Source: a virus. From it: a DNA stretch of 22,794 nucleotides. This document shows, one piece after another, positions 1 through 10,597 of this stretch. The notes below the pieces were generated by a model. That model did no database searches. It worked only from the letters and a program-made list of their open reading frames with translations, and was not told where the DNA came from. The translations under genes and the position numbers were made by a program. Positions within the stretch are counted from its first letter, which is position 1; every line of letters starts with the position of its first letter. The DNA lies in the IMG/VR virus record IMGVR_UViG_3300047300_001079, positions 1-22,794 of that record; one strand, given 5' to 3'.

Positions 1-19
1 CCTGTAATACCTCCACAGG
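1..19. repeat. Short inverted repeat at window edge
   Basis: CCTGT and ACAGG arms of 5 bp enclose a 9-nt loop, and a TATAAT-like hexamer follows at 20-25. It could be the end of a terminator or an operator of a region that lies outside the window. The stem is short, so the call is weak. Confidence 0.3.
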
Positions 20-35
20 TATAATAAAAATACGC

Positions 36-153: not shown

Positions 154-1911
154 ATGACACAATGGATTGCCGGGATTACACGGGGCCATAACGGAGCAGT
201 TTGCCTTTTAAAAGATGGTGAACTAGTTTTTTATGTAGAAGAAGAGCGATTATCAAGAAAAAAATATGATGGCGGACCTTTTGCAGGTATGATGAAAATC
301 AAAGAGTATACAGATAAATTAGATTATCTTGTAGTTGCACATACGCAACCTCTTGAACATGCAGGTAAAATTGATTTTACTGGCGATGATATGTATACAG
401 GATTAGCCAGAAAACTCGGATTAATTGATCAAAAGTATAATGGACGTGACCATCCGCAAGTAATTGACTTAGGCGGTATTCACCATGAATTGCATGCTGC
501 GTGTACTTTTTATAATAGTGGATTTGAAGAAGCTGCTGTTTTAATTGTGGACGGAGCAGGAACATTTATTCCGCTTGGGGATACTACAGGCTGGGAATTA
601 GAGACAATCTTTAGCGCGCAATATCCTGCTAAGTTTACTACTAAATTTAAGCATATTGGAGTTCGCGGACCACAAACAGCCTATGAAAAGCTTCAAGTAC
701 CTCACGCACATAGAGGACATGAAGAACTACACGATGTAATTTTCACAGATCACCCAGGCATTACAAAATGCTATGAGGCTATGACAGACTATTGTGGGTT
801 TGGATTTATCGAAGCTGGAAAAGCTATGGGATTAGCACCATATGGCAAACCCAACCCAGATATTCCAGAGATCTTTTTAGGACCAAAAAGTCGTAACTTA
901 AGTAATCGTAACTTATTTGTTCCAAACTACCCCAACGGGGCTCATATCGATAAAGTAGCTAATCCAGTATTGGATACTGATAGTTTAGATATGAAAAAAG
1001 ATTTAGCATATGCTGTACAAGAAGCTACACAAATGCAAATGGTACGCTTAATCAAAGATGCTATTGAACGTACCGGTATTAAAAATGTATGTATTGCTGG
1101 CGGTTTTGGATTAAACTGCGTAGCAAATTACGAATATTTAAAACACTTGCCAGAAGGTACTAAACTGTATTGCGAGCCAATTGCTCATGATGGCGGTACT
1201 TGTATTGGAGCGGCTAAACTTGTTTATCACGAATTTAGTGGCGATAAGACTATTCGCAAACAAACTACTATTTACCACGGCCCAAACTACTTTGAACGAG
1301 ATGGTGGCTATAATATTGAGCTACACCACGACGAGCAAATTAGTACAGTAACCAAAGATGAGGTTATTGAACTAATTACTAGTGGTAATATTGTTTGTTT
1401 ATATCAGGGCGGAAGCGAAGCAGGTCCACGAGCACTAGGAAATCGTAGTATTTTATTCGATCCACGAGTTCCTAATGGCAAAGATATTGTTAATGAAGTC
1501 AAGCATCGTGAGTGGTTTAGACCTTTCGCAGGATCTATGTTAGCTGAACATGTTCACGATTGGTTTGATTTACGTGGCATGGAAGATAGTCCCGTTATGA
1601 TGTATGCAGTAGACTGCAAACCCGGAGTAGCAGAGAAAGTTCCAAGTATCATTCATGTGGATGGAAGTTGCCGAATTCAAACTGTAACACCCGAGCAAAA
1701 TAAGCATTATTATGAGCTTATTGAAAAGTTCTATGAAAAAACTGGTGTACCTATTTTGTTTAATACTAGTTTTAATTTAGGTGGTGACCCACTAGTAGAA
1801 ACTATTGGGGATGCATTAAACACACTGCGCAATAGTGATTTGCAGTATTTATACTTGCCAGAAACAAATCAGCTTATTCACGTTCCATATAATCTACAAG
1901 CAGAAGAATAA
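154..1911 (+). CDS. NodU/CmcH-family O-carbamoyltransferase
   Basis: Predicted enzyme that uses carbamoyl phosphate and ATP to O-carbamoylate an acceptor, usually a sugar hydroxyl. The 585-aa length is normal for the family. The N-terminal YrdC/Kae1-like ASKHA part shows GHNGA near residue 11, EEERLSRKK near 29-37 and the metal-binding HHELHAA at 110-116, then DGAG near 133. The C-terminal domain shows GSEAGPRALGNRS near 419-431, the basic KHREWFRPFAG segment and FNTSFNLGGDP near 536-546. GGAG at 142-145 is a good ribosome site for this ATG. It is followed after 2 bp by an oxygenase-like gene and then by heptose genes, so a heptose or other glycan acceptor is inferred. In Pseudomonas aeruginosa LPS the inner-core heptose II is 7-O-carbamoylated, which gives a precedent. 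DNA hypermodification is an alternative. Family call sure; substrate unknown. Confidence 0.93.
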   Translation: MTQWIAGITRGHNGAVCLLKDGELVFYVEEERLSRKKYDGGPFAGMMKIKEYTDKLDYLVVAHTQPLEHAGKIDFTGDDMYTGLARKLGLIDQKYNGRDHPQVIDLGGIHHELHAACTFYNSGFEEAAVLIVDGAGTFIPLGDTTGWELETIFSAQYPAKFTTKFKHIGVRGPQTAYEKLQVPHAHRGHEELHDVIFTDHPGITKCYEAMTDYCGFGFIEAGKAMGLAPYGKPNPDIPEIFLGPKSRNLSNRNLFVPNYPNGAHIDKVANPVLDTDSLDMKKDLAYAVQEATQMQMVRLIKDAIERTGIKNVCIAGGFGLNCVANYEYLKHLPEGTKLYCEPIAHDGGTCIGAAKLVYHEFSGDKTIRKQTTIYHGPNYFERDGGYNIELHHDEQISTVTKDEVIELITSGNIVCLYQGGSEAGPRALGNRSILFDPRVPNGKDIVNEVKHREWFRPFAGSMLAEHVHDWFDLRGMEDSPVMMYAVDCKPGVAEKVPSIIHVDGSCRIQTVTPEQNKHYYELIEKFYEKTGVPILFNTSFNLGGDPLVETIGDALNTLRNSDLQYLYLPETNQLIHVPYNLQAEE

Positions 1912-1913
1912 GA

Positions 1914-2639
1914 ATGGGTACAGAATTTTTAGAAGGTCCAGTACCTAATACTAAATTTGGAAAGCGATTTAAAGTACCTATTTATACTGCAAAAGACGGA
2001 AGTAAAGAGTTTATTAAAACTCTTTACGACTACGTTGTACACCTAGAAGATACTATTATAAGCAAAGAAGAGCTTGTAAGTAGCGTACCTAAAGCGTCCA
2101 CAGACCCTTATCAGTACACACAGCAGTGGAAACAACATAATTTATTTGATGATGTTGTTGGTTTAGGTGGCGAACATCTACAACGATTTGAAAAGATACC
2201 TGAAATAGATCAGCTGCTTAAATTAGTAAGAGAGCATTATTTAGTTAATCTAGCTAATTTAAGATATCCTCGCGTTAAAGCCTACATACATGGATGGGCA
2301 AATATACTAAGGCCAGGAGAGTGGATTAGTCCACACTGTCATATTGATGGTGAAGAAGCATATCTTGCAGCTACTTATTATTTAACAACTAATAATACTA
2401 GCTTATACATGCACGATGCTTCTTATCCTAAAACGTGCGGTGCAGTCACAACAGAAGCAGGAAAAATAGTTATATTTCCTAGCTGGATGCATCATTGGAG
2501 TGATAAGTGTGAAGATGAATCTTTGCGGGTATCATTAGCCTTTGATATAGTTACAGAAAATACTGTACAGGGTAACCCTTGGAGACCCCATGTACTACTA
2601 GATGATCCTGCTACTATGCCAGGACTTGATTATAAATGA
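1914..2639 (+). CDS. Putative 2-oxoglutarate/Fe(II) oxygenase
   Basis: A 241-aa protein with the facial-triad pattern of 2OG-Fe(II) dioxygenases: H143-x-D145 in SPHCHIDGEE, a distal His in WMHHW (193/194) and R205 in RVSLAFDI, which would bind 2-oxoglutarate. The sequence around PGEWISPHCH and IFPSWMHHW resembles the putative phage/bacterial 2OG-Fe(II) oxygenase family TIGR02466 from memory. The first 100 residues are not recognisable. It starts 2 bp after the carbamoyltransferase stop and its TGA overlaps the ATG of the next gene, so it is in the same operon. The substrate could be a sugar, protein or nucleobase; the position within a glycan module favours a sugar or surface target. It is not visibly a TET/JBP-type DNA oxygenase. 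Confidence 0.72.
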   Translation: MGTEFLEGPVPNTKFGKRFKVPIYTAKDGSKEFIKTLYDYVVHLEDTIISKEELVSSVPKASTDPYQYTQQWKQHNLFDDVVGLGGEHLQRFEKIPEIDQLLKLVREHYLVNLANLRYPRVKAYIHGWANILRPGEWISPHCHIDGEEAYLAATYYLTTNNTSLYMHDASYPKTCGAVTTEAGKIVIFPSWMHHWSDKCEDESLRVSLAFDIVTENTVQGNPWRPHVLLDDPATMPGLDYK

Positions 2640-3619
2640 AAAAAGCATTTTTTATTAATGGCGGAATAGGTCGTGTATTATGCGCCATCCCAGCCTTAGA
2701 GCACTATGTACAAAATGTAGATGCTGACGCAGTAATAGTTGTGGAGGCATGGTTAGATTTATTCTTACTTAGTCCTATCTTAAAAGATAATGTTTATCCA
2801 GTAAACCATAAAGGCTTATTTAAAGATAAATTACGAGATAAAAATCTGATTAGTTTAGAACCTTATCGATTAAATGCTTATTTCAATCAAAAAGCTAACT
2901 TAATTCAAGCTTTTGATATGCTAGTAAATGATTTAACAGAAGTGCCGGAGACTAAACCACTGTCTATTTCTGTTGGTAAATCTGATGAAATTGTTGGGTT
3001 TAACTTGCTTAACCAAATTCGTGCTGAACTTGGAAAAGAGAAAGTAATAGTATTTCAACCTTTTGGCAGCGGTGCTAAATTAGATGGAAATATTATTATT
3101 GACGAAAGTGGTCGTAGTTTTGAACTAAAAGACACAGTAGAAATTATTGAAGAACTCAGCAAAGATTACTGCGTTGTAGTTATGTCAAGTATTAAAATAC
3201 CTTATACTTTTAGTACAAGAGTAGCACATCCTGAAAATGTTAGTTTGTTACAGTGGACAGGTATTATTGATGCTTGCGATTATTTCTTAGGGTGTGATAG
3301 TGTTGGACAACACTATGCCAATGCCTTGGGTAAAAAAGCCACAGTTGTAATTGGAGCCACCTTTCCCGAAAATATCAGTTATCCCGATAACGAGAACTTT
3401 ACTATTATCGATAATGGTTTAGGATTACGAGAATATTCACCTATTCGTATTACTCAGGATATATTTACAGATCGCGCAAATGAATCACTTATGTTACTTA
3501 GCCAAGAAACCAAAGACTTAATTGTAGATACTGTTAAATCAGGAGCAGGACCCAGTAAGAAATTTACTCCTGTAACACAACAACAAACTCAGCAACAAAA
3601 TGCTTGTTGCGTTAAATAA
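2636..3619 (+). CDS. GT9 heptosyltransferase-like glycosyltransferase
   Basis: Resembles ADP-heptose:LPS heptosyltransferases (GT9, GT-B fold) in overall layout. The N-terminal glycine-rich GGIGRVLCAIPALE (residues 9-22) is the usual acceptor-side loop. A central FQPFGSGAK sits where GT9 enzymes have their nucleotide-domain entry, and the C-terminal CDSVGQHYANALGKKATVVIGATFPE matches the DSG-x-HxAxA-LG-P-x-VxLFG pattern of the donor site. The 327 aa are close to typical GT9 size. The last 15 residues are Gln-rich with CC near the end, an odd tail. Its ATG overlaps the upstream stop by 4 bp and its last base is shared with the next start. Adjacent ADP-heptose synthesis genes strongly suggest ADP-heptose as donor. 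The acceptor, host LPS or another molecule, is not known. Confidence 0.75.
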   Translation: MKKAFFINGGIGRVLCAIPALEHYVQNVDADAVIVVEAWLDLFLLSPILKDNVYPVNHKGLFKDKLRDKNLISLEPYRLNAYFNQKANLIQAFDMLVNDLTEVPETKPLSISVGKSDEIVGFNLLNQIRAELGKEKVIVFQPFGSGAKLDGNIIIDESGRSFELKDTVEIIEELSKDYCVVVMSSIKIPYTFSTRVAHPENVSLLQWTGIIDACDYFLGCDSVGQHYANALGKKATVVIGATFPENISYPDNENFTIIDNGLGLREYSPIRITQDIFTDRANESLMLLSQETKDLIVDTVKSGAGPSKKFTPVTQQQTQQQNACCVK

Positions 3620-4029
3620 TGAAAATATTTGTAAACGGCACTTTTGACGTCTTACATCCAGGCCACCTAGACTTGCTGAATTATGCAAAAAGTCTAGGTG
3701 ACTTTTTACTGGTGGCGATAGATTCGGACAGCCGAGTCGCCAGCAAAAAGGGAATGGATAGACCTTTTAATCCACAATATAACCGAATGAAGTTACTTGA
3801 AAACTTAAAAGCAGTTGATGAAGTAGTAATTTTTGATACGGATCAAGAACTAACACAAACAGTAAAAATACTTAGGCCTGACATAATGATTGTTGGGTCA
3901 GATTATAAAGATAAAACCGTAATTGGTTCGGAATATGCACGAGAACTTAGATTTTATAGCAGAACAACACCTCACTCAAGTACCCAAATACTGGAACATT
4001 TTATTGATCGGAGACGAATGTACGGATGA
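3619..4029 (+). CDS. rfaE2: Heptose-1-phosphate adenylyltransferase (HldE C-domain type)
   Basis: A 136-aa cytidylyltransferase-fold protein. It carries the nucleotide-binding GTFDVLHPGH at 7-16, the NRMKLLENL helix, and GSDYKDKTVIGSE, matching the KGGDYK...VxGxE signature of D-glycero-beta-D-manno-heptose 1-phosphate adenylyltransferase; the PHSSTQIL end matches the CSTT.II end of Escherichia coli HldE. In E. coli this is the C-terminal half of bifunctional HldE; here it is a separate gene placed before the kinase, as in organisms with split RfaE. The final 95 bp overlap the kinase gene in another frame. Predicted to form ADP-D-glycero-beta-D-manno-heptose in the cytoplasm. Confidence 0.88.
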   Translation: MKIFVNGTFDVLHPGHLDLLNYAKSLGDFLLVAIDSDSRVASKKGMDRPFNPQYNRMKLLENLKAVDEVVIFDTDQELTQTVKILRPDIMIVGSDYKDKTVIGSEYARELRFYSRTTPHSSTQILEHFIDRRRMYG

Positions 4030-4720
4030 GTACATTTATGGAACTATTGACCGACTAAGTCCAGAAGCACCTGTACCAGTATTTGTTCCACATAATAAAG
4101 AAACCAAGCGTGGAATGGCGGGTAATGTAGAAGAAAATTTACTTGCACTGGGTTGCAATGTTGCTACATTAAGTGGTGAAAAAAGTACAAAAACAAGATT
4201 TATTGATGCCAGGTCTAAACAACACATAATGCGGTTAGACCAAGATAAGCCTGCACAACCACTAATTTTAGAAACATTAATACCTCCAGTATACGATGCA
4301 GTAGTAGTCAGCGACTATAATAAAGGGCTAGTAACCTACGAGTTAGTAGAAACTATACTTAAACAATTTAACGGCCCAGTTTTTATTGATACAAAGAAAA
4401 CTGACTTGGCTAGGTTTAATGGAGCTTTTGTAAAAATCAATAGCCTAGAATACTCACTGGCTAAAACACTATCAGATAATCTAATTGTTACATTGGGTAA
4501 AGACGGTACCCGCTACAAGGATACGACATATCCTGCACCTCAAGTAGAGGTTGCCGATGTGTGTGGTGCCGGAGATACTTTTTTATCTGCACTGGTATAC
4601 GAGTATTTAAATACCAACAGTATTCCACAAGCAATTGAATTTGCCAATCGTGCAGCTTCTGTAACTGTAAAACACACAGGTGTTTATGCACCTAAACTGA
4701 AAGAAATAAATGCGGCTTGA
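3935..4720 (+). CDS. rfaE1: Minimal heptose-7-phosphate kinase (HldE N-domain type, PfkB)
   Basis: PfkB-family sugar kinase close to the N-terminal half of HldE. Visible landmarks are ILLIGDECTDEY, the RLSPEAPVPVF segment nearly identical to HldE's RISPEAPVPV, MAGNVEENLLALG, VVSDYNKG, IDTKKTD and the ATP-site GAGDTF near residue 212. It should phosphorylate D-glycero-D-manno-heptose 7-phosphate at C1. At 261 aa it is clearly shorter than the roughly 318-residue E. coli domain: between the LALG helix and TRFIDAR about 30 residues are missing, so the kinase is compacted. I prefer the ATG at 3935; a TTG four codons earlier (3923) is possible. Neither has a clear ribosome site, and translation may couple to the 95-bp overlapping adenylyltransferase gene. 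Confidence 0.85.
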   Translation: MHENLDFIAEQHLTQVPKYWNILLIGDECTDEYIYGTIDRLSPEAPVPVFVPHNKETKRGMAGNVEENLLALGCNVATLSGEKSTKTRFIDARSKQHIMRLDQDKPAQPLILETLIPPVYDAVVVSDYNKGLVTYELVETILKQFNGPVFIDTKKTDLARFNGAFVKINSLEYSLAKTLSDNLIVTLGKDGTRYKDTTYPAPQVEVADVCGAGDTFLSALVYEYLNTNSIPQAIEFANRAASVTVKHTGVYAPKLKEINAA

Positions 4721-5066
4721 AGGCTTTGTAGAAAAGGGCTGGGGTTCAGAAAACATTTGGGCAACCAATGACAAGTACTGCGGTAAACTATTGCAGTTTA
4801 ATACTGGTGCTCGTTTTTCAATGCACTTTCACGCACAAAAAGATGAAACTTGGTATGTGCTTAGCGGAAAGTTTAAGGTAGTAGTTATCAATACAGCTAA
4901 TGCTAGTCAAGTAGTGCATGAACTTAATTCGGGTAGTGTTTGGCATAATCCACCACTACTACCACATCAATTAATCTGCTTAGAAGCAGGCACTATCATT
5001 GAAGTATCAACACCAGATTCGGTAGAAGATAACTATCGTGTAGGCAAAGGCGATAGTCAACAATGA
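4710..5066 (+). CDS. Small cupin-domain protein (sugar-phosphate isomerase-like)
   Basis: A 118-aa single-domain cupin. Cupin motif 1 is visible as MHFHAQKDETWYVLSGK (metal ligands H, H, E), and motif 2 as HNPPLLPHQLICLEAG. The opening VEKGWGSENIW resembles the entry of mannose-6-phosphate isomerase-type cupins (WG.E..W). It overlaps the kinase gene by 11 bp and its stop overlaps the next ATG. In a sugar-nucleotide operon it might isomerise or epimerise a sugar or bind one; the exact reaction cannot be told from the sequence. It is a candidate, though not a homologue, for the missing isomerase step of the heptose route. Confidence 0.75.
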   Translation: MRLEGFVEKGWGSENIWATNDKYCGKLLQFNTGARFSMHFHAQKDETWYVLSGKFKVVVINTANASQVVHELNSGSVWHNPPLLPHQLICLEAGTIIEVSTPDSVEDNYRVGKGDSQQ

Positions 5067-5356
5067 AATACATTATAGACATTGATGGTACTATATGTAC
5101 CTTAACCAATGGCAATTATACCGATGCAGAACCCTACCTATATCGTATAAAACATTTTAATAATCTTTACAATGCTGGCAATGAGATTCACTACTGGACT
5201 GCTCGTGGTAGCAATAGTGGTAAAGATTGGCTAGAACTTACGCTCCAACAATTAAATGACTGGGGTGTTAAGTATACCACAGCGCAAACAGGTAAACCAG
5301 CCTACGACGTTTGGATTGATGACAAAGCCTTTAATGTAGGCACATATTTTAAATGA
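5063..5356 (+). CDS. Small HAD-superfamily phosphatase of sugar clusters
   Basis: A 97-aa HAD hydrolase without a cap domain. Motif I is DIDGT at 6-10 (nucleophile and acid/base Asp), motif II is the Thr in YWTARG, and the acidic end IDDKAFN gives motif IV. Similar 100-aa proteins occur in capsule/LPS loci and phages, and I recall some being labelled phosphoheptose-related because of their neighbours. It lacks the Cys/His zinc loop of true GmhB, so it is not a GmhB orthologue, but a phosphatase is exactly the activity needed between the kinase and adenylyltransferase steps (heptose-1,7-bisphosphate 7-phosphatase). Start and stop both show ATGA overlaps with neighbours. Confidence 0.78.
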   Translation: MKYIIDIDGTICTLTNGNYTDAEPYLYRIKHFNNLYNAGNEIHYWTARGSNSGKDWLELTLQQLNDWGVKYTTAQTGKPAYDVWIDDKAFNVGTYFK

Positions 5357-6135
5357 AAATTTTACTAACAGGACACTGTGGCTTTATTGGGCAAAATATG
5401 TTACAAGCCTTGCAGAATACTGACCATGAGATTAACACTTTTGAGTGGTCGGATGGAAATATGCCTAGCATTATGGAACAAGACTGGGTTATTCATATTG
5501 GAGCTATTAGTTCTACTACTGAACGTGACGTTGACAAAGTACTGCGTCAAAACTATGATTTTAGTAGGCAACTATTTATAGCTTGTAAAACCTATGGAGT
5601 AAATTTACAGTATTCTAGTTCAGCTAGTGTATACGGTCTTGGAACTGATTTTTGCGAAACAGCACCACCAGACCCACGTAATGCATATGCCTGGTCAAAG
5701 TACTTATTTGAACGCTATCACCAACAACATCAAGGCGGTAACATAGTACAAGGATTTCGATACTTTAATGTTTACGGTCCACACGAAGATCACAAAGGCT
5801 CACAAGCTAGCCCTTACCATCAGTTTGGTAAACAAGCCCGTGAAACTGGTAAGATAAAAGTATTTGAAAACAGCGATAAGTATCGCAGAGATTTTGTACC
5901 AGTTGAGCAGGTCATTGCTACTCATCTGGCTTTTTTAAACAGCAAAGAATCAGGAATATTTAACATTGGTACTGGTACTGCAAAAAGCTTCTTAGAAGTA
6001 GCCGAAACTTTTAGTGTACCCGTTGAAACTATACCAATGCCTGAGCAGTTGGCAGCAAGCTATCAAAAGTATACTTGTGCTGATATGACAAAAACCAATA
6101 AAATTTATGACTACTCTAAAAGAACTAACACATGA
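5353..6135 (+). CDS. hldD: ADP-heptose 6-epimerase-like SDR (HldD type)
   Basis: Extended short-chain dehydrogenase/reductase. The Rossmann loop is G7-x-x-G10-x-x-G13 (TGHCGFIG), the catalytic pair is Y112-x3-K116 in YAWSKYLFE with the SSSASVYG serine before it. Several stretches follow HldD rather than generic epimerases: ISSTTE, GFRYFNVYGP, HKGS.AS, KYRRDFV and GIFNIGTG. It would convert ADP-D-glycero- to ADP-L-glycero-beta-D-manno-heptose. At 260 aa it is about 50 residues shorter than E. coli HldD, with the loss at the C-terminus (last helices) where the gene overlaps the heme oxygenase start by 29 bp. Whether the shortened tail still allows oligomerisation is unknown. Confidence 0.88.
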   Translation: MKILLTGHCGFIGQNMLQALQNTDHEINTFEWSDGNMPSIMEQDWVIHIGAISSTTERDVDKVLRQNYDFSRQLFIACKTYGVNLQYSSSASVYGLGTDFCETAPPDPRNAYAWSKYLFERYHQQHQGGNIVQGFRYFNVYGPHEDHKGSQASPYHQFGKQARETGKIKVFENSDKYRRDFVPVEQVIATHLAFLNSKESGIFNIGTGTAKSFLEVAETFSVPVETIPMPEQLAASYQKYTCADMTKTNKIYDYSKRTNT

Positions 6136-6643
6136 ATCGCATGAGCGTGCAGAAGTTCACCCATTCACAAAATTAGTTTTATCAAAAAACATCAGCCCAG
6201 TAGTATACGCTGATTTTTTGTACAATCAACACGCTGTATACCACACACTTGAAAGTGTAGCTAATATTCGTGGATTGCTAGACGATTTACCAGGATTACG
6301 ACGCGCGCCACTAATTTGGCAGGACTTTGAGGAGTTACAGATTAGTGGGTGTAAACTGTATACAAGTACACACAAGTATATTCACTATCTTGTGTGTAAC
6401 TTATCTGACGAACAGATACTAGCACACTTGTATGTACGACATATGGGCGATATGTATGGTGGTCAGATGATTAAGCGCTGTGTTCCTGGCAGTGGTAGTA
6501 TGTACGAGTTTAAAAATCGTAAAGAGTTGATTGAAACTCTACGAAGTAAACTAGATACTTCTATGGCTTCGGAAGCAAACTATTGCTTTGATTGTGCTAT
6601 TCAATTATTTACGGAACTAGCCAATGAGCACAATATTCAATAA
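6107..6643 (+). CDS. ho1: Heme oxygenase (HO-1 type)
   Basis: Predicted to open heme to biliverdin IXalpha, releasing CO and iron, using reduced ferredoxin. The proximal heme ligand is H12 in THESHERAE, matching the T..SH..AE motif of cyanobacterial and mammalian HO. The flexible distal helix is G114-DMYGGQ-120, preceded by YVRH, matching Y.RY.GD.SGGQ. At 178 aa it is shorter than the roughly 240-aa cyanobacterial enzymes, mainly at the C-terminus. It overlaps the epimerase by 29 bp and the bilin reductase by 20 bp, so the three genes are co-transcribed. The adjacent reductase indicates a bilin-making rather than an iron-scavenging role. Phage heme oxygenases are known from cyanophages and uncultured marine phages. 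Confidence 0.93.
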   Translation: MTTLKELTHESHERAEVHPFTKLVLSKNISPVVYADFLYNQHAVYHTLESVANIRGLLDDLPGLRRAPLIWQDFEELQISGCKLYTSTHKYIHYLVCNLSDEQILAHLYVRHMGDMYGGQMIKRCVPGSGSMYEFKNRKELIETLRSKLDTSMASEANYCFDCAIQLFTELANEHNIQ

Positions 6644-7325
6644 ACTAAAAGCTCATGCAGCAGAATTGGAAGCAATTTTAGCTGCGCGGGCTTTTTCTTC
6701 GCCTTCAGAAATCACCTCAGAATGGTACACCCGAAACTTTAGTAACTGTTGGTTCCGACGTGGTAACTTAGATGTTATTGACGTATCGGAATCTAAAAAG
6801 TTGTATATGATGCACCTGTGTGTATTTCCACATACATATGATGCAGCACCTATTTATGGGTTTGATATTGTAGCCGGCACAAATAAAATCACAGGGGCTT
6901 TTTTAGATTTTAGTCCTGTAGGTGATCCAGAGCATCCAATGTGCAAGTGGTTTCAAGAATTAGTAGAACCCACCGAATGGGCTAAACCACGTGAACTACC
7001 TGAATGGGCTCGTAATATATTTTCTAACCGCATGGTTGCTGCAGGTAATATTAACACAGACTTTGAACTAAGTGTTATCTTAGAAATAAGCAAGAAGTCA
7101 CTTATTTATTACTTGGACAACTTAAAACACCATCGTCCAGCATTAAAGTACGAAGATATGGTAGCACAACATAATTTTACTGAAAAGCAAAATTATTACT
7201 GTCAGCAACAAAAATGTAACCCACATACTCCCAGAGTATTAAAATCACTAGGATTCAATGATGATCAAGTCCATGAGTACATACATAAAGAACTGTTTCC
7301 TGAAATACGAACAACAGTGGATTGA
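6624..7325 (+). CDS. pcyX: Ferredoxin-dependent bilin reductase (PcyX/PcyA lineage)
   Basis: Reduces biliverdin to a phycobilin. The core PIYGFDIVAG followed by ITGAFLDFSP is the family signature. By hand alignment D81 equals the essential Asp105 of PcyA/PebS and H64 equals PcyA His88 (both 17 residues apart). The C-terminal YYCQQQKCNPHTPRVL matches the YxxQQ..N..T.RVL helix of PcyA, with N199 at the position of PebS Asp206. No Glu aligns without gaps to PcyA Glu76 (I52 there; D50 and D53 are near), which would fit a phage PcyX making phycoerythrobilin rather than a classical PcyA making phycocyanobilin, but this is inference. The 233 aa are typical for phage enzymes. The start overlaps the heme oxygenase end; no strong ribosome site, so coupling is likely. 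Confidence 0.92.
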   Translation: MSTIFNKLKAHAAELEAILAARAFSSPSEITSEWYTRNFSNCWFRRGNLDVIDVSESKKLYMMHLCVFPHTYDAAPIYGFDIVAGTNKITGAFLDFSPVGDPEHPMCKWFQELVEPTEWAKPRELPEWARNIFSNRMVAAGNINTDFELSVILEISKKSLIYYLDNLKHHRPALKYEDMVAQHNFTEKQNYYCQQQKCNPHTPRVLKSLGFNDDQVHEYIHKELFPEIRTTVD

Positions 7326-7355
7326 TTATTGGTATCACTATGGAGGACCAAAGTA

Positions 7356-7775
7356 ATGTGGATACTACAATTTTTACCCAATTGGTTATTTTATATAATT
7401 CTGTTCGGTGGTGTAATAGGATTTTTAGTTACACACTTTATTAAAGTAATACCTCAAGCAGAATTAATTCAAGTTGCAAGTGCTGTAGCAATTATTGCTA
7501 GCGTTTACATGATAGGTGCTATAAGCAACAATGATGCTTGGTTGTTACGAGTCAAAGAATTAGAAACAAAAGTTGCACAAGCAGAAGCACAAAGTGCTGA
7601 ACTCAATACTAAGATTGTTGAAGTTAGTGCTGCAAAAACTCAAGTAGTTCGTGAGCGTGGTCGTGATATAGTCAAATATGTGGATCGTGAAGTAGTCAAG
7701 TTTGATACTACTTGTGTGATACCCAAAGAATTTGTAACCGCACATAATCGTGCAGCAGAGGCACCAAAGAAATGA
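7356..7775 (+). CDS. Probable inner-membrane spanin (Rz-like)
   Basis: Start set at ATG 7356 because GGAGG lies at 7342-7346; an in-frame TTG at 7329 lacks such a site. The 139-aa product has two N-terminal hydrophobic segments (about 8-28 and 37-56), a charged coiled-coil-like stretch at about 62-100 and a periplasmic tail with CVIPKEFV.AHN, an ending seen in many phage Rz-like proteins. The next gene is a small lipoprotein overlapping by 4 bp and then an endolysin, the standard order of i-spanin, o-spanin and lysin. Two membrane segments rather than one are unusual for an i-spanin, so a holin-spanin fusion or holin role is possible. Confidence 0.72.
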   Translation: MWILQFLPNWLFYIILFGGVIGFLVTHFIKVIPQAELIQVASAVAIIASVYMIGAISNNDAWLLRVKELETKVAQAEAQSAELNTKIVEVSAAKTQVVRERGRDIVKYVDREVVKFDTTCVIPKEFVTAHNRAAEAPKK

Positions 7776-8038
7776 AACTGTTAGCATTAACATTAACTTT
7801 AGCGTTAACGGGTTGCTCAACAACTGTTCCAGTTACAGCAAAATTTCCACAAGCACCAGGTACACTAGTACAAGAGTCTTGTCCTAACTTACAAAAACTG
7901 GAAGAGTCTACTAAACTGTCGGATGTGGCAAAAACCGTAACTGTTAATTATTCAGAATATTACTTGTGTGCAGTTAAGTTAGAAGCCTGGCAACGCTGGT
8001 ATCGTGAACAAAAAACCATCTATGAAAGCGTAAAATAA
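7772..8038 (+). CDS. Outer-membrane spanin lipoprotein (Rz1-like)
   Basis: An 88-aa lipoprotein: a short hydrophobic signal ending in lipobox LTGC with lipidated Cys15, giving a mature protein of 74 residues. The C-terminal WYREQKTIYESVK is typical of small phage lysis lipoproteins as I remember them. It overlaps the putative i-spanin by an ATGA junction and the endolysin start by one base, supporting a spanin pair that would fuse inner and outer membranes at lysis. The presence of a lipoprotein spanin argues for a Gram-negative host. Confidence 0.78.
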   Translation: MKLLALTLTLALTGCSTTVPVTAKFPQAPGTLVQESCPNLQKLEESTKLSDVAKTVTVNYSEYYLCAVKLEAWQRWYREQKTIYESVK

Positions 8039-8652
8039 TGGAACTAAAAATCGAGCAACTAAAACAAATTGTCGATAAAAATCCTTATATTGAACACTGG
8101 CATCATGCGCTGGTGCAGCTACTACCAGACTATGAGATTAATACCCCCGCACGTATGGCGGCTTTTTTAGCGCAATGTGCACATGAGTCAGGTGGATTTC
8201 GTGCAATCAAAGAAAACTTAAATTATCGTGCAGCTAGCCTACGCAAAACATTTGGCAAATATTTTCCTACTGATGAAATTGCACAGCAATATGCAAATAA
8301 ACCAGAAAAGATTGCAAACCGAGTTTACGCTAACCGCATGGGTAATGGTGACGAAGCATCAGGCGATGGGTATCGATACTGTGGGCGTGGATTGATTCAA
8401 CTAACTGGCAAAGACAATTATTTTTGGTTTGCTGCTAGTTTGAACTTAACACCAGAACAAGCTTCAGACTATATGGAAACATTTGAAGGTGCGGCACAGT
8501 CGGCGTGCTGGTTTTGGGAAACAAACAATTTAAATCAATGGGCAGATAAAGGCGATATCTTGACCCTAACCAAACGTATCAATGGTGGTACAATTGGACT
8601 AGAAGATCGTAAAAAGCATTATGAACATGCTTTACACATTTTTGGCGGCTAA
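8038..8652 (+). CDS. GH19 chitinase-like endolysin
   Basis: A 204-aa peptidoglycan hydrolase of the lysozyme/GH19 class. The catalytic Glu candidates are E50 in AQCAHESGGF and E59 in IKENLNY. The substrate-groove signature is YANRMGN followed by GYRYCGRGLIQLTG, ending about residue 124, and a late RINGGTIGL motif follows. No signal peptide or membrane anchor is visible, so export should depend on a holin. The start codon overlaps the upstream TAA by one base. Downstream, and in the same frame after the stop, is a 43-aa ORF. Confidence 0.93.
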   Translation: MELKIEQLKQIVDKNPYIEHWHHALVQLLPDYEINTPARMAAFLAQCAHESGGFRAIKENLNYRAASLRKTFGKYFPTDEIAQQYANKPEKIANRVYANRMGNGDEASGDGYRYCGRGLIQLTGKDNYFWFAASLNLTPEQASDYMETFEGAAQSACWFWETNNLNQWADKGDILTLTKRINGGTIGLEDRKKHYEHALHIFGG

Positions 8653-8655
8653 GCC

Positions 8656-8787
8656 TTGATCACAGCTTGGTTAATTTCAATAACATTAGGTTATGTACCA
8701 CCTGAACGCGAGTGTGTTCGGTGGACATGGTCTGGAGACGTATATAATAGAAAAGTAATATGTTTAAAGTGGCGTAAGCGCCCATAG
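8656..8787 (+). CDS. Small conserved-looking phage protein, 43 aa, TTG start
   Basis: An ORF from TTG 8656 to TAG 8787 fills the gap between endolysin and the next gene. There is no in-frame ATG, so TTG (or a neighbouring ATC) is the only plausible start; it follows the endolysin stop by 3 bp. The product has a short hydrophobic N-terminus (ITAWLISITLGYV), then PPERECVRWTWSGDVYNRKV and CLKWRKRP, rich in Trp, Cys and Arg. I recall closely similar tiny proteins in aquatic phages, but I know no function. The two cysteines may matter if it is exported. Confidence 0.6.
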   Translation: MITAWLISITLGYVPPERECVRWTWSGDVYNRKVICLKWRKRP

Positions 8788-8796
8788 GAGGTAAGT

Positions 8797-9288
8797 ATGA
8801 TAGATCCGATGACCGCTCTAGCGGGGATACAGTCGGCCATTAGTATGGTCAAGAAGGCTTCGAAAGTTGCTAACGATTTAGGGTCATTAGCCCCTATGAT
8901 TGGTAAGATGTTTGATGCTAAAAGCACTGCGACTAAGGCTTTAATTGAAGCCAAACGTAGTGGCGGGGGCAACAACATGGGCACTGCTCTTCAAATTGAA
9001 ATGGCACTAGAACAAGCGCGTGCATTTGAAGAAGAACTAAAAATGCTGTTTATGCAAACAGGCAAGATTGATGTGTGGAACAAAATCAAAGCACGTCAAG
9101 CGGAAATGGATCGTGACGATGCCATTGCACTTCGTAAATTAAAAGACGCTGAAAAAGCCGCAAAAGAAAAAGAACAGTTTTACACAGATATAGCTATAGG
9201 TGTTGGAGTTGTCTTTTTTGTACTATTCTTAATCTTTGTTGGTATCAACGAATTAGGCGACTTGTGTGCTAAAGGATGTGGTCGATGA
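8797..9288 (+). CDS. Coiled-coil protein with C-terminal membrane segment
   Basis: A 163-aa protein with a textbook ribosome site (AGGAGG directly upstream, 8786-8791). Residues 1-60 are Ala/Ser/Lys-rich with a GGGNN turn at 57-60; 65-130 form a charged helix likely to be coiled coil; 133-150 is a strongly hydrophobic single membrane segment; a short tail with two Cys follows. It lies among small membrane genes after the lysis module. No family recognised with confidence; similar proteins occur in marine phages. A structural/internal virion or lysis-regulating role are both possible. The strong ribosome site suggests high expression. Confidence 0.8.
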   Translation: MIDPMTALAGIQSAISMVKKASKVANDLGSLAPMIGKMFDAKSTATKALIEAKRSGGGNNMGTALQIEMALEQARAFEEELKMLFMQTGKIDVWNKIKARQAEMDRDDAIALRKLKDAEKAAKEKEQFYTDIAIGVGVVFFVLFLIFVGINELGDLCAKGCGR

Positions 9289-9434
9289 ATGAGTATCAAA
9301 AAACTTTTGATTTAGCTTTAAGAATATGTGTGTATGGTATGGTTGCCATGTATTTTCTTGGATTTCTAAAATTCTTACCAAACGATCTATCAGACAAAAT
9401 CGTTAACTTATTACTAGGAAAAATAGGCCTATAA
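9285..9434 (+). CDS. Small membrane protein, 49 aa
   Basis: ATG at 9285 overlaps the upstream TGA (ATGA junction) and the frame runs to TAA at 9432-9434, three bases before the next ATG. The product begins MNEYQKTFDLALR, has a hydrophobic stretch (ICVYGMVAMYFLGFLKFL, residues 14-31) and a short amphipathic end IVNLLLGKIGL. One membrane segment is likely. No function recognised; size and place would allow a small holin-type or accessory lysis protein. Confidence 0.65.
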   Translation: MNEYQKTFDLALRICVYGMVAMYFLGFLKFLPNDLSDKIVNLLLGKIGL

Positions 9435-9436
9435 CA

Positions 9437-9721
9437 ATGCACAATGATTTAAAGCTGTTTAAATGGGCAGCAATATTATTAGTATTACCATTAGCATTAG
9501 GATTTTGTGGCAAAGAAAGCTTTCGCTATCCTTGTCAAGATCCTGCAAATTGGGACAAAGACTTCTGTAAACCACCTATATGCGATGTTACAAGAACTTG
9601 CCCAGAACATATATTTAAAGGCCAGCGAGATCCAAGACTTGGCCCTCCAGCAACCAGAACAGAACCTATGGTAACGCCGCAATGTACAACACCAACACAA
9701 GGAGCTAATTGTGGAAAGTAA
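9437..9721 (+). CDS. Small exported cysteine-rich protein
   Basis: A 94-aa product with a hydrophobic N-terminus (about 9-23) ending in LGFC, which resembles but does not satisfy a lipobox because the residue before Cys is Phe. The mature part holds six Cys, with PCQDPANWDKDFCKPPIC and TRTCPEHIF motifs, and a Pro/Thr-rich end. Likely periplasmic or membrane-anchored with disulfides. I recall similar proteins in cyanophage and other marine phage genomes but no function. It overlaps the next gene by 11 bp. Confidence 0.72.
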   Translation: MHNDLKLFKWAAILLVLPLALGFCGKESFRYPCQDPANWDKDFCKPPICDVTRTCPEHIFKGQRDPRLGPPATRTEPMVTPQCTTPTQGANCGK

Positions 9722-10172
9722 CACAATTATTTATACTGAAGATCAGCTAATGGCGCGCCTGAAATTTTTTATTGGCATTTGTCTTGCGCTTACCTTAACT
9801 GGAATCGTATTCGTAGTATTATATTCAATTATTTTTATTACACAGCCATTAAACGCTATTAGCCCAATCGATCAAAAGTTTTTTGAAATGATTATTCCAA
9901 TTGCTACCTTTTTAACAGGTACGCTAAGCGGAATTATGTTAGCAGGCGGTAGCAAAGAAGAAATGGAAATGAAGCGCGATATGATTAAACAAGCGCAAGA
10001 AAATTCAAATACTTATGCCAAAGCTAATCCTGTTAAAATAGAGCCACAGTTTACAAGCCCAATTCAGACAACTGCTGGATTTAATGGAACTAGTGCAGCG
10101 CCTAGTACTCCTGGAATTACTTATATTAACGGCAAACCTGCTCCAGTACAAGCACCACATCCGGAGATCTAA
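9711..10172 (+). CDS. Two-segment membrane protein, GTG start
   Basis: A 153-aa protein starting at GTG 9711, chosen because AAGGAG sits at 9699-9704. Two hydrophobic segments at about 18-43 and 61-80 are joined by a short loop containing SPIDQKFFE; then comes a charged KEEMEMKRD helix and a Pro/Thr/Gly-rich C-terminal tail of about 60 residues. The loop motif IDQK-x-F-[DE] recurs in the next gene. A holin-like or membrane-organising role is possible; no named family recognised. Confidence 0.75.
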   Translation: MESNTIIYTEDQLMARLKFFIGICLALTLTGIVFVVLYSIIFITQPLNAISPIDQKFFEMIIPIATFLTGTLSGIMLAGGSKEEMEMKRDMIKQAQENSNTYAKANPVKIEPQFTSPIQTTAGFNGTSAAPSTPGITYINGKPAPVQAPHPEI

Positions 10173-10391
10173 ATGAGTCGGTTAAAGACTATGTTATCAG
10201 AAGATCCAACAGTTAGTAGTAAACGAGTAATTACTTTTTTAGCATTTTTACTATGTGCTGCGGCTTTTGTGGCAATGATACTTGGGCATCAAATAGATCA
10301 AAAATTATTTGATTCTATGATGTATATTGTAATTGCAGGCTTAGGATTTACAGCAAGCGAAAAGTTTGCACCAACCAAGGAAATTAAATGA
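10173..10391 (+). CDS. Small two-segment membrane protein (holin-like)
   Basis: A 72-aa protein with GGAG 8 bp before the ATG. It has hydrophobic segments at about 19-38 and 47-60 separated by GHQIDQKLFDS, and a charged end (EKFAPTKEIK). Size and topology are those of small class II holins, and it is near an endolysin and spanins, but it is separated from them by several genes. The IDQKLFD turn resembles IDQKFFE in the upstream protein, suggesting shared origin. Ends in an ATGA overlap with the next gene. Confidence 0.72.
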   Translation: MSRLKTMLSEDPTVSSKRVITFLAFLLCAAAFVAMILGHQIDQKLFDSMMYIVIAGLGFTASEKFAPTKEIK

Positions 10392-10597
10392 AAAAAGTTA
10401 TTTTAGCAATTGTAACCAGTTTAGCACTGGTTTCAGCATTTGCCGAAGCAGAGACCAAACAAGTCTGTAAAGACAAAATGGACAAATCAGGTAAACCAGT
10501 TAAAAAGGCAGACGGTAGTACTGCACAAGAGTGCAAAACTATCAAGGTGCACCAAAAACTTGAAGGTAATAAAGTCGAAGACGCTAAGAAGAAATAA
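10388..10597 (+). CDS. Small secreted basic protein
   Basis: A 69-aa product with a clear Sec signal peptide: KK, a hydrophobic core to about residue 17 and AFAEA as the likely cleavage region. The mature part of about 50 residues is Lys-rich with two Cys (KQVCKDKMDKSGK and AQECKTIK), probably one disulfide. Function unknown; a periplasmic protein. It is the last gene before the promoter/hairpin region at 10606-10649. Confidence 0.7.
   Translation: MKKVILAIVTSLALVSAFAEAETKQVCKDKMDKSGKPVKKADGSTAQECKTIKVHQKLEGNKVEDAKKK

Follow-up and report, generated by a model that had tools for sequence, protein, structure and literature searches.

Carbamoyltransferase, oxygenase, and glycosyltransferase genes of the window

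The window analyzed here is the whole of the 22,794-base IMG/VR virus record IMGVR_UViG_3300047300_001079. Near its start, three open reading frames (ORFs) lie on the plus strand: a NodU/TobZ-type O-carbamoyltransferase (CTase; 154..1911), a 2-oxoglutarate (2OG)-Fe(II) oxygenase of the PF13759 type (1914..2639), and a putative protein heptosyltransferase, here called GT for glycosyltransferase (2636..3619). They are followed by genes of ADP-heptose synthesis. Sequence comparison and gene neighborhoods suggest that this set is probably a virion-glycosylation cassette, by which heptose would be made, put on cysteine-rich tips of the tail fibers, and carbamoylated. A preliminary description had named the same three enzymes but placed their product on the lipopolysaccharide (LPS) of the host; the names held, whereas the target does not fit the relatives.

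The CTase matched both domains of the O-carbamoyltransferases (Pfam Carbam_trans_N, 5.5e-26; Carbam_trans_C, 5.6e-58) as well as PHROG 1601 (2.2e-167), and its profile matched solved structures of a carbamoyltransferase (9.4e-76) and of TobZ (1.1e-60). Residues H110, H111, and H114 and the motif GPRALGNR are invariant among its relatives. The two catalytic domains are common to it and the TobZ/NodU-type enzymes, but the window CTase falls in a clade of its own with other GT-linked CTases (SH-aLRT [Shimodaira-Hasegawa-like approximate likelihood ratio test] 96, the only support computed for this quick tree). The oxygenase matched Pfam 2OG-FeII_Oxy_5 (2e-10), and its H141, H143, H194, and R205 are invariant in the nine sequences aligned. 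In many related loci (e.g., L064, L068, and L080), several 2OG-Fe(II) oxygenases are grouped around GT and CTase.

The product of 2636-3619 matched no Pfam family, including Glyco_transf_9, and a PDB sequence search with its profile gave nothing useful. It matched a PHROG without assigned function (5e-129), and an archaeal homolog scored 18.1 bits with PF01075, below the cutoff of 22. The AlphaFold2 model (predicted local distance difference test [pLDDT] score of 88.7) has the GT-B fold of the GT9 heptosyltransferase type. The best fold matches were 3tov (Z 21.6), WaaF (20.6), TibC (18.7, about 3 Z below the best match; root mean square deviation [rmsd] of 3.1 over 263 residues), and WaaC (17.7), and after the heptosyltransferases the scores dropped, with other GT-B enzymes at Z 11.9 downwards. 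Subunits of the plant NDH-photosystem I supercomplex (7wff, 9grx, and 7f9o) also have a GT9-like fold, with Z of 18.4 to 18.8 against the GT model.

The catalytic base of the LPS heptosyltransferases is replaced in GT. Arg13 is invariant in 38 of 38 aligned GTs at the position of the catalytic Asp13 of WaaC, a register set by eye (MxxxxxxxxxxGD versus MxxxxxxxxxxGR), and structural alignments also start at residue 1 of both proteins. Among 185 GTs of at least 250 residues, many of them near-duplicates, a motif search gave Arg in 179; five of the remaining six have it by eye, and one lacks the N terminus. Asp221 is also invariant and aligns with the DSG of WaaF as the equivalent of Asp261 (GCDSxGQH). 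According to the accessible text of PMC5713226, the D13A change costs WaaC 4,688-fold of its activity, and D13 is present in all heptosyltransferases; that of PMC4358343 gives Asp110 of TibC as its counterpart. Compared to WaaC and WaaF, GT shares the fold and the Asp261 equivalent but has Arg for Asp13, a linkage to virion genes, and marginal sequence similarity. The TibC/BAHT protein heptosyltransferases have a GT9-like fold too, and TibC heptosylates adhesin proteins. However, GT is without the N-terminal beta-barrel domain of TibC (residue 1 of the model aligns with TibC residue 97), has no CxxC in its ORF where TibC has a four-Cys iron finger, and has Arg for Asp110, Cys-rich acceptor candidates, and a CTase partner.

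Linkage of the glycosyltransferase to cysteine-rich proteins

The best 80 of 159 relatives found in viral contigs with GT as the query were kept, by similarity. Many of these loci are related, and the counts given here, like the Fisher test below, take no account of kinship. GT adjoins CTase in 76 of the 80 loci and is at most two genes away in 79. Fiber-tip (c0) or chaperone-like (c4) genes lie at most three genes upstream of the pair in 78 of the 79 loci with an upstream gene, and a long tail-fiber gene precedes them in most loci that extend far enough. Five annotated cyanophages carry the same block beside tail-fiber genes, and the neck genes gp13-15 follow it directly in four. In the reverse search, the c0 profile retrieved 78 loci. 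Of these, 69 extend 2.5 kb or more downstream, and GT and CTase are present in that part of 68 (40 of 41 when only stretches outside the first set are counted). In the sole exception, L104, the arrangement is odd and inverted, with two CTase/tip blocks that meet head-on, which may reflect a duplication or an invertible fiber cassette. The Cys-rich genes are placed just as narrowly. The first 89 loci contain 1,045 genes of at least 150 residues. A Cys content of 5% or more was reached by 154 of them, every one of which precedes GT by one to eight genes. For instance, the three most Cys-dense of the 198 ORFs of S-SSM7 are the three tips that precede GT.

Co-occurrence was also seen in loci with bilin genes, of which 42 out of 61 span the whole interval from fiber to heme oxygenase. 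Eleven of the 42 have a Cys-rich tip together with GT and CTase, 30 have neither in the interval, and one (L251) has GT and CTase with a Cys-rich domain fused to the fiber end (Fisher p 2.8e-9, kinship ignored). Bilins bind cysteine, and bilin-bearing tips were considered as a reason for the Cys-richness. This was rejected because 30 of the 42 loci with the bilin reductase PcyX have no Cys-rich tip in the interval and most Cys-rich loci have no PcyX. CTase as the driver of Cys-richness was likewise rejected, being contradicted by S-CAM8, where a 43% identical CTase lies beside the tail fibers and the genes read include neither GT nor a Cys-rich protein, and by Vibrio phages with GT and a Cys-rich tail protein but no CTase in the stretch examined.

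The c0 tip proteins contain 8.8% Cys and 16.5% Gly, compared to 1.65% Cys over all genes, and Pfam Gly_rich_2 was matched by 8 of 29. A tip model (pLDDT 82.3) resembles the cyanophage Pam3 fiber (Z 13.4, 186 residues, rmsd 2.8), and also the Bxb1 tail tip (Z 12.1) and the glycine-rich domain of ALK (Z 8.7). One of two neighboring c4 chaperone-like proteins scanned matched Phage_tail_APC. Only 28% of tip cysteines are in conserved columns, and 50 of 109 tips have an odd number of them. Judged from these alignments, such scattered and often odd-numbered cysteines argue against a fixed disulfide scaffold, which does not by itself prove modification. In the literature covered, which leaves out most subscription journals and was available in part, nothing was recognized on a Cys-rich cyanophage fiber, a cyanophage heptose carbamoyltransferase, or an S-linked phage heptose.

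Divergent GTs beyond the marine phages keep the Arg and again adjoin Cys-rich proteins, which by sequence have other folds. In Vibrio phages D505, K479, and SBP1, a Cys-rich tail protein with 8 to 9 Cys in one 100-residue block directly follows GT, and in Aeromonas phage HJ05 a Cys-rich protein directly precedes it. Among the 81 ORFs of HJ05 and the 52 of SBP1 (with 15 kb of the SBP1 genome outside the set), the GT neighbor ranks first in Cys density, and several of the runners-up in these two phages are probably spurious antisense ORFs. L178 likewise has a divergent GT with Arg beside a Cys-rich protein. When the GTs of HJ05 and D505 were used to scan viral sequences, no relatives turned up, so this blind test of divergent GTs stayed small. 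Separately, on a short (5.3-kb) virus-like contig in an archaeal bin, a 372-residue protein with 12.4% Cys directly precedes a GGxGR GT (L293:2288-4304). A viral scan with the archaeal-bin GT gave one partial match, L315, of different architecture; its 7.2% Cys ORF, two kilobases off, resembles a zinc-binding protein, not a fiber.

One copy appears to be cellular. L177, labeled as a Woesearchaeota metagenome-assembled genome (MAG), is a chromosome contig with genes for an L10e-type ribosomal protein, a Cbf5-type protein (Pfam), and an enolase-like protein (by eye). Its stretch 5129-10406 encodes a HAD phosphatase along with CTase, GT, and a 593-residue Cys/Gly-rich protein with a Tat-like signal. 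Cells may put the same chemistry to use here. Archaeal copies are rare, since 378 genomes of the class of L177 gave two GT matches, one strong and one clear but divergent. The phage arrangement was also present in MAGs named Rhodobacteraceae, Euryarchaeota, Actinomycetota, Neomarinimicrobiota, and Flavobacteriales (L169-L173, L175, L176, and L179), which are probably phage contigs misbinned with cells. L174, in an Alphaproteobacteria MAG, has a CTase locus, and no GT was found in its genome. Cellular GT9 genes served as a control. There, 45 of 46 loci with the GD motif have no Cys-dense neighbor (L325 is borderline), compared to two out of two with the full GGxGR motif that do, both being the archaeal copies already known. 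A further nine loci had no motif call and three had no GT call. Another six matched only a loose "GR" (MRLGRLF, or IHVGRII within long fusion proteins); none of these has a Cys-dense neighbor, and they were judged to carry another motif and set aside.

Heptose supply genes and operon layout

Downstream of GT, the window encodes the kinase, adenylyltransferase, and epimerase types of ADP-heptose synthesis, so the heptose operon named in the preliminary description is real. These are an HldC-type heptose-1-phosphate nucleotidyltransferase of the HldE adenylyltransferase type (3619..4029; TIGR02199, 2.2e-32), an HldA-type PfkB heptose-7-phosphate kinase (3923..4720; TIGR02198, 6.2e-41), whose true start is uncertain and probably after 3923, and an HldD-type ADP-heptose 6-epimerase (5353..6135; TIGR02197, 1.6e-64), all on the plus strand and all matched below the strict NCBI equivalog cutoffs. 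The isomerase GmhA (TIGR00441) had no match in 15 phage records, of which five are complete genomes and ten are fragments, with a positive E. coli control. A small cupin (4710..5066, plus strand) lies in this set, as a cupin does in 37 of 38 loci having kinase and epimerase, and its profile touches sugar isomerases and also oxalate decarboxylases. From these matches and counts it is reasonable, and not more than that, to see in the cupin a candidate aldose-ketose isomerase standing in for GmhA. The next gene (5063..5356, plus strand) encodes a 97-residue HAD-like protein, whose PHROG 1238 carries the label "phosphoheptose isomerase." It looks like a phosphatase (TIGR01689, 3e-4) and is a candidate for the GmhB step; the neighboring cupin is the likelier isomerase.

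From 154 to 7325, consecutive genes abut or overlap, as in one operon. After GT come the heptose genes, a heme oxygenase, and a bilin reductase (to 7325), and then spanin- and lysin-like genes. The preliminary description had the CTase and oxygenase lead this operon, and that part does not hold. By their reading frame, nucleotides 1..24 of the plus strand finish an upstream protein of the tail-fiber assembly type, with the residues PVIPPQV and a stop. The nearest relative is L010, whose GT is 79% identical; there, the gene before CTase ends alike (APTPPQV, stop) and looks like a fiber assembly protein, and three Cys-rich tip genes lie upstream of CTase. CTase appears first because the contig starts inside the upstream chaperone gene, not for a biological reason. 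By this comparison, the true operon start is off the contig, and the phage's own Cys-rich fiber-tip genes are expected there, further upstream. Between the upstream gene and CTase, at 36-116, a promoter-like site (TTGATT-17-TATAAT) precedes a terminator-like hairpin; the number of such sites is not above chance. The fiber operon closes at 6107-7325 with the heme oxygenase and the bilin reductase, which is of the PcyX type. The two form a known phage cassette according to the accessible text of PMC11480375, and in related loci they stay at the end of the fiber module with or without the glycan cassette.

Proposed modification and its alternatives

These genes would act together as follows. The HldC-type enzyme, the HldA-like kinase, the HAD phosphatase, the HldD epimerase, and the cupin would supply ADP-heptose in late infection; its role as the donor of GT is suggested by the neighboring heptose genes only. 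GT would then heptosylate the Cys- and Gly-rich fiber tips in the cytoplasm, before assembly, CTase would carbamoylate and so cap the bound heptose, and the 2OG oxygenase may hydroxylate the protein or the sugar further. The resulting coat on the fiber tip would be stable and could tune receptor binding or protect. The idea of a carbamoylated heptose, put forward in the preliminary description, survives alongside the gene identities, and its interpretation overall is partly supported.

Several observations weigh against fiber-tip glycosylation. The sequence similarity of GT to heptosyltransferases is weak (TIGR02201, E 0.001), and the catalytic base of WaaC is missing, so its activity must differ in mechanism or be absent. 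In 45 of 80 loci there are no heptose genes within at most 10 kb on each side, and in these stretches host ADP-heptose or another sugar must serve. The window itself has no Cys-rich tip gene, as the contig begins too late. L249, one of the 30 bilin loci with neither feature in the interval, has GT and CTase on the opposite strand before the fiber and no Cys-rich gene in its stretch, and is a real exception on present data. Finally, receptor-modifying genes can also sit beside tail fibers.

Which residue of the tip would carry the sugar is the finer question. A sulfur acceptor is favored because Cys-richness, rather than fold, is common to the GT neighbors; it tracks GT and not CTase, spans folds, and accompanies the loss of the Asp base. 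On these grounds we tentatively propose that the GGxGR GTs could be a family of cysteine S-heptosyltransferases, in which the loss of Asp and gain of Arg would suit a thiolate and the tips would be coated with carbamoylated, S-linked heptose. By the same tentative reading, the partners of these GTs, in archaea as in marine, Vibrio, and Aeromonas phages, may be surface proteins that are rich in Cys but unrelated in fold. Alternatively, the fibers could be the target but the linkage to oxygen, with Ser or Thr glycosylated in the manner of TibC and the cysteines serving for disulfide or metal cross-links. This form of tip glycosylation deserves serious consideration without being the expected outcome. 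TibC modifies Ser of adhesins, according to the accessible part of PMC4358343, its fold scores within about 3 Z of the best match to GT, and the tips contain 16% Ser plus Thr. However, that level is ordinary (20% in the c6 fibers), and it is Cys that sets the GT neighbors apart across folds. The poorly conserved, often odd-numbered cysteines are unlike a fixed disulfide scaffold, and the Asp base is lost.

Fiber-tip glycosylation, by either linkage, also has to be weighed against readings in which the fiber is not modified at all. The preliminary proposal was a carbamoylated heptose on the host LPS, with GT acting on the core and CTase on the added sugar, a change that would shut out later phages. 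It would fit the LPS heptosyltransferase fold of GT and the name "LPS genes" used in earlier work (PMC3037559, accessible part). We consider it unlikely. GT and CTase are tightly paired with fiber-tip genes, Asp13 of the LPS enzymes is replaced, and the archaeal chromosomal copy comes with a Cys-rich protein. The cassette is also found in Synechococcus phages, with cyanophage Sf-FS3 grown on WH8102, and in the accessible text of PMC4515613 the LPS of two Synechococcus strains, WH8102 and CC9311, has neither heptose nor Kdo. This mismatch applies to relatives, the window phage having no assigned host. Hypermodification of DNA by carbamoyl or glycosyl transfer to bases, which the preliminary description had offered as its alternative, is scarcely credible here. 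A phage 5-hydroxymethylcytosine (5hmC) carbamoyltransferase of the same family exists (MetaGPA; PMC8670742, accessible part), but this proven enzyme lies far outside the GT-linked clade of the quick tree (branch 6.5) and travels with thymidylate synthase homologs (PMC8670742, accessible part), whereas the window cassette travels with tail fibers and its CTase adjoins no such homolog. The cassette contains no base-hydroxymethylating gene, as had been noted, and Tet_JBP was matched in 0 of 45 related records, a weak negative since no control genome gave a match. Very improbable, too, is a nonfunctional stuffer or decayed gene set, a question raised for cyanophages in 2010 and left open in the accessible part of PMC3037559. 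A GT without its catalytic Asp might suggest decay, but the ORFs are intact, conservation is deep, GT and CTase residues are invariant, and the genes are repeatedly inherited together.

That question concerned the "LPS gene clusters" of cyanophages P-SSM2, S-SSM7, and S-SM2, in which T4-GC 304, 305, 307, and 308 correspond to the nucleotidyltransferase, kinase, cupin, and epimerase of the cassette. In the accessible text, Sullivan and coworkers (2010; PMC3037559) called them LPS genes of unknown use and left open whether they were functional or stuffer, whereas here they are tied to fiber tips through GT and CTase. Tip glycosylation would give a testable answer to why cyanophages carry "LPS" heptose genes, and host recognition by widespread marine phages would then include the making of a glycan. 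An S-linkage, if true, would amount to a new protein modification, served by an enzyme family of its own that is also present in archaea, and would explain the Cys-rich fiber tips.

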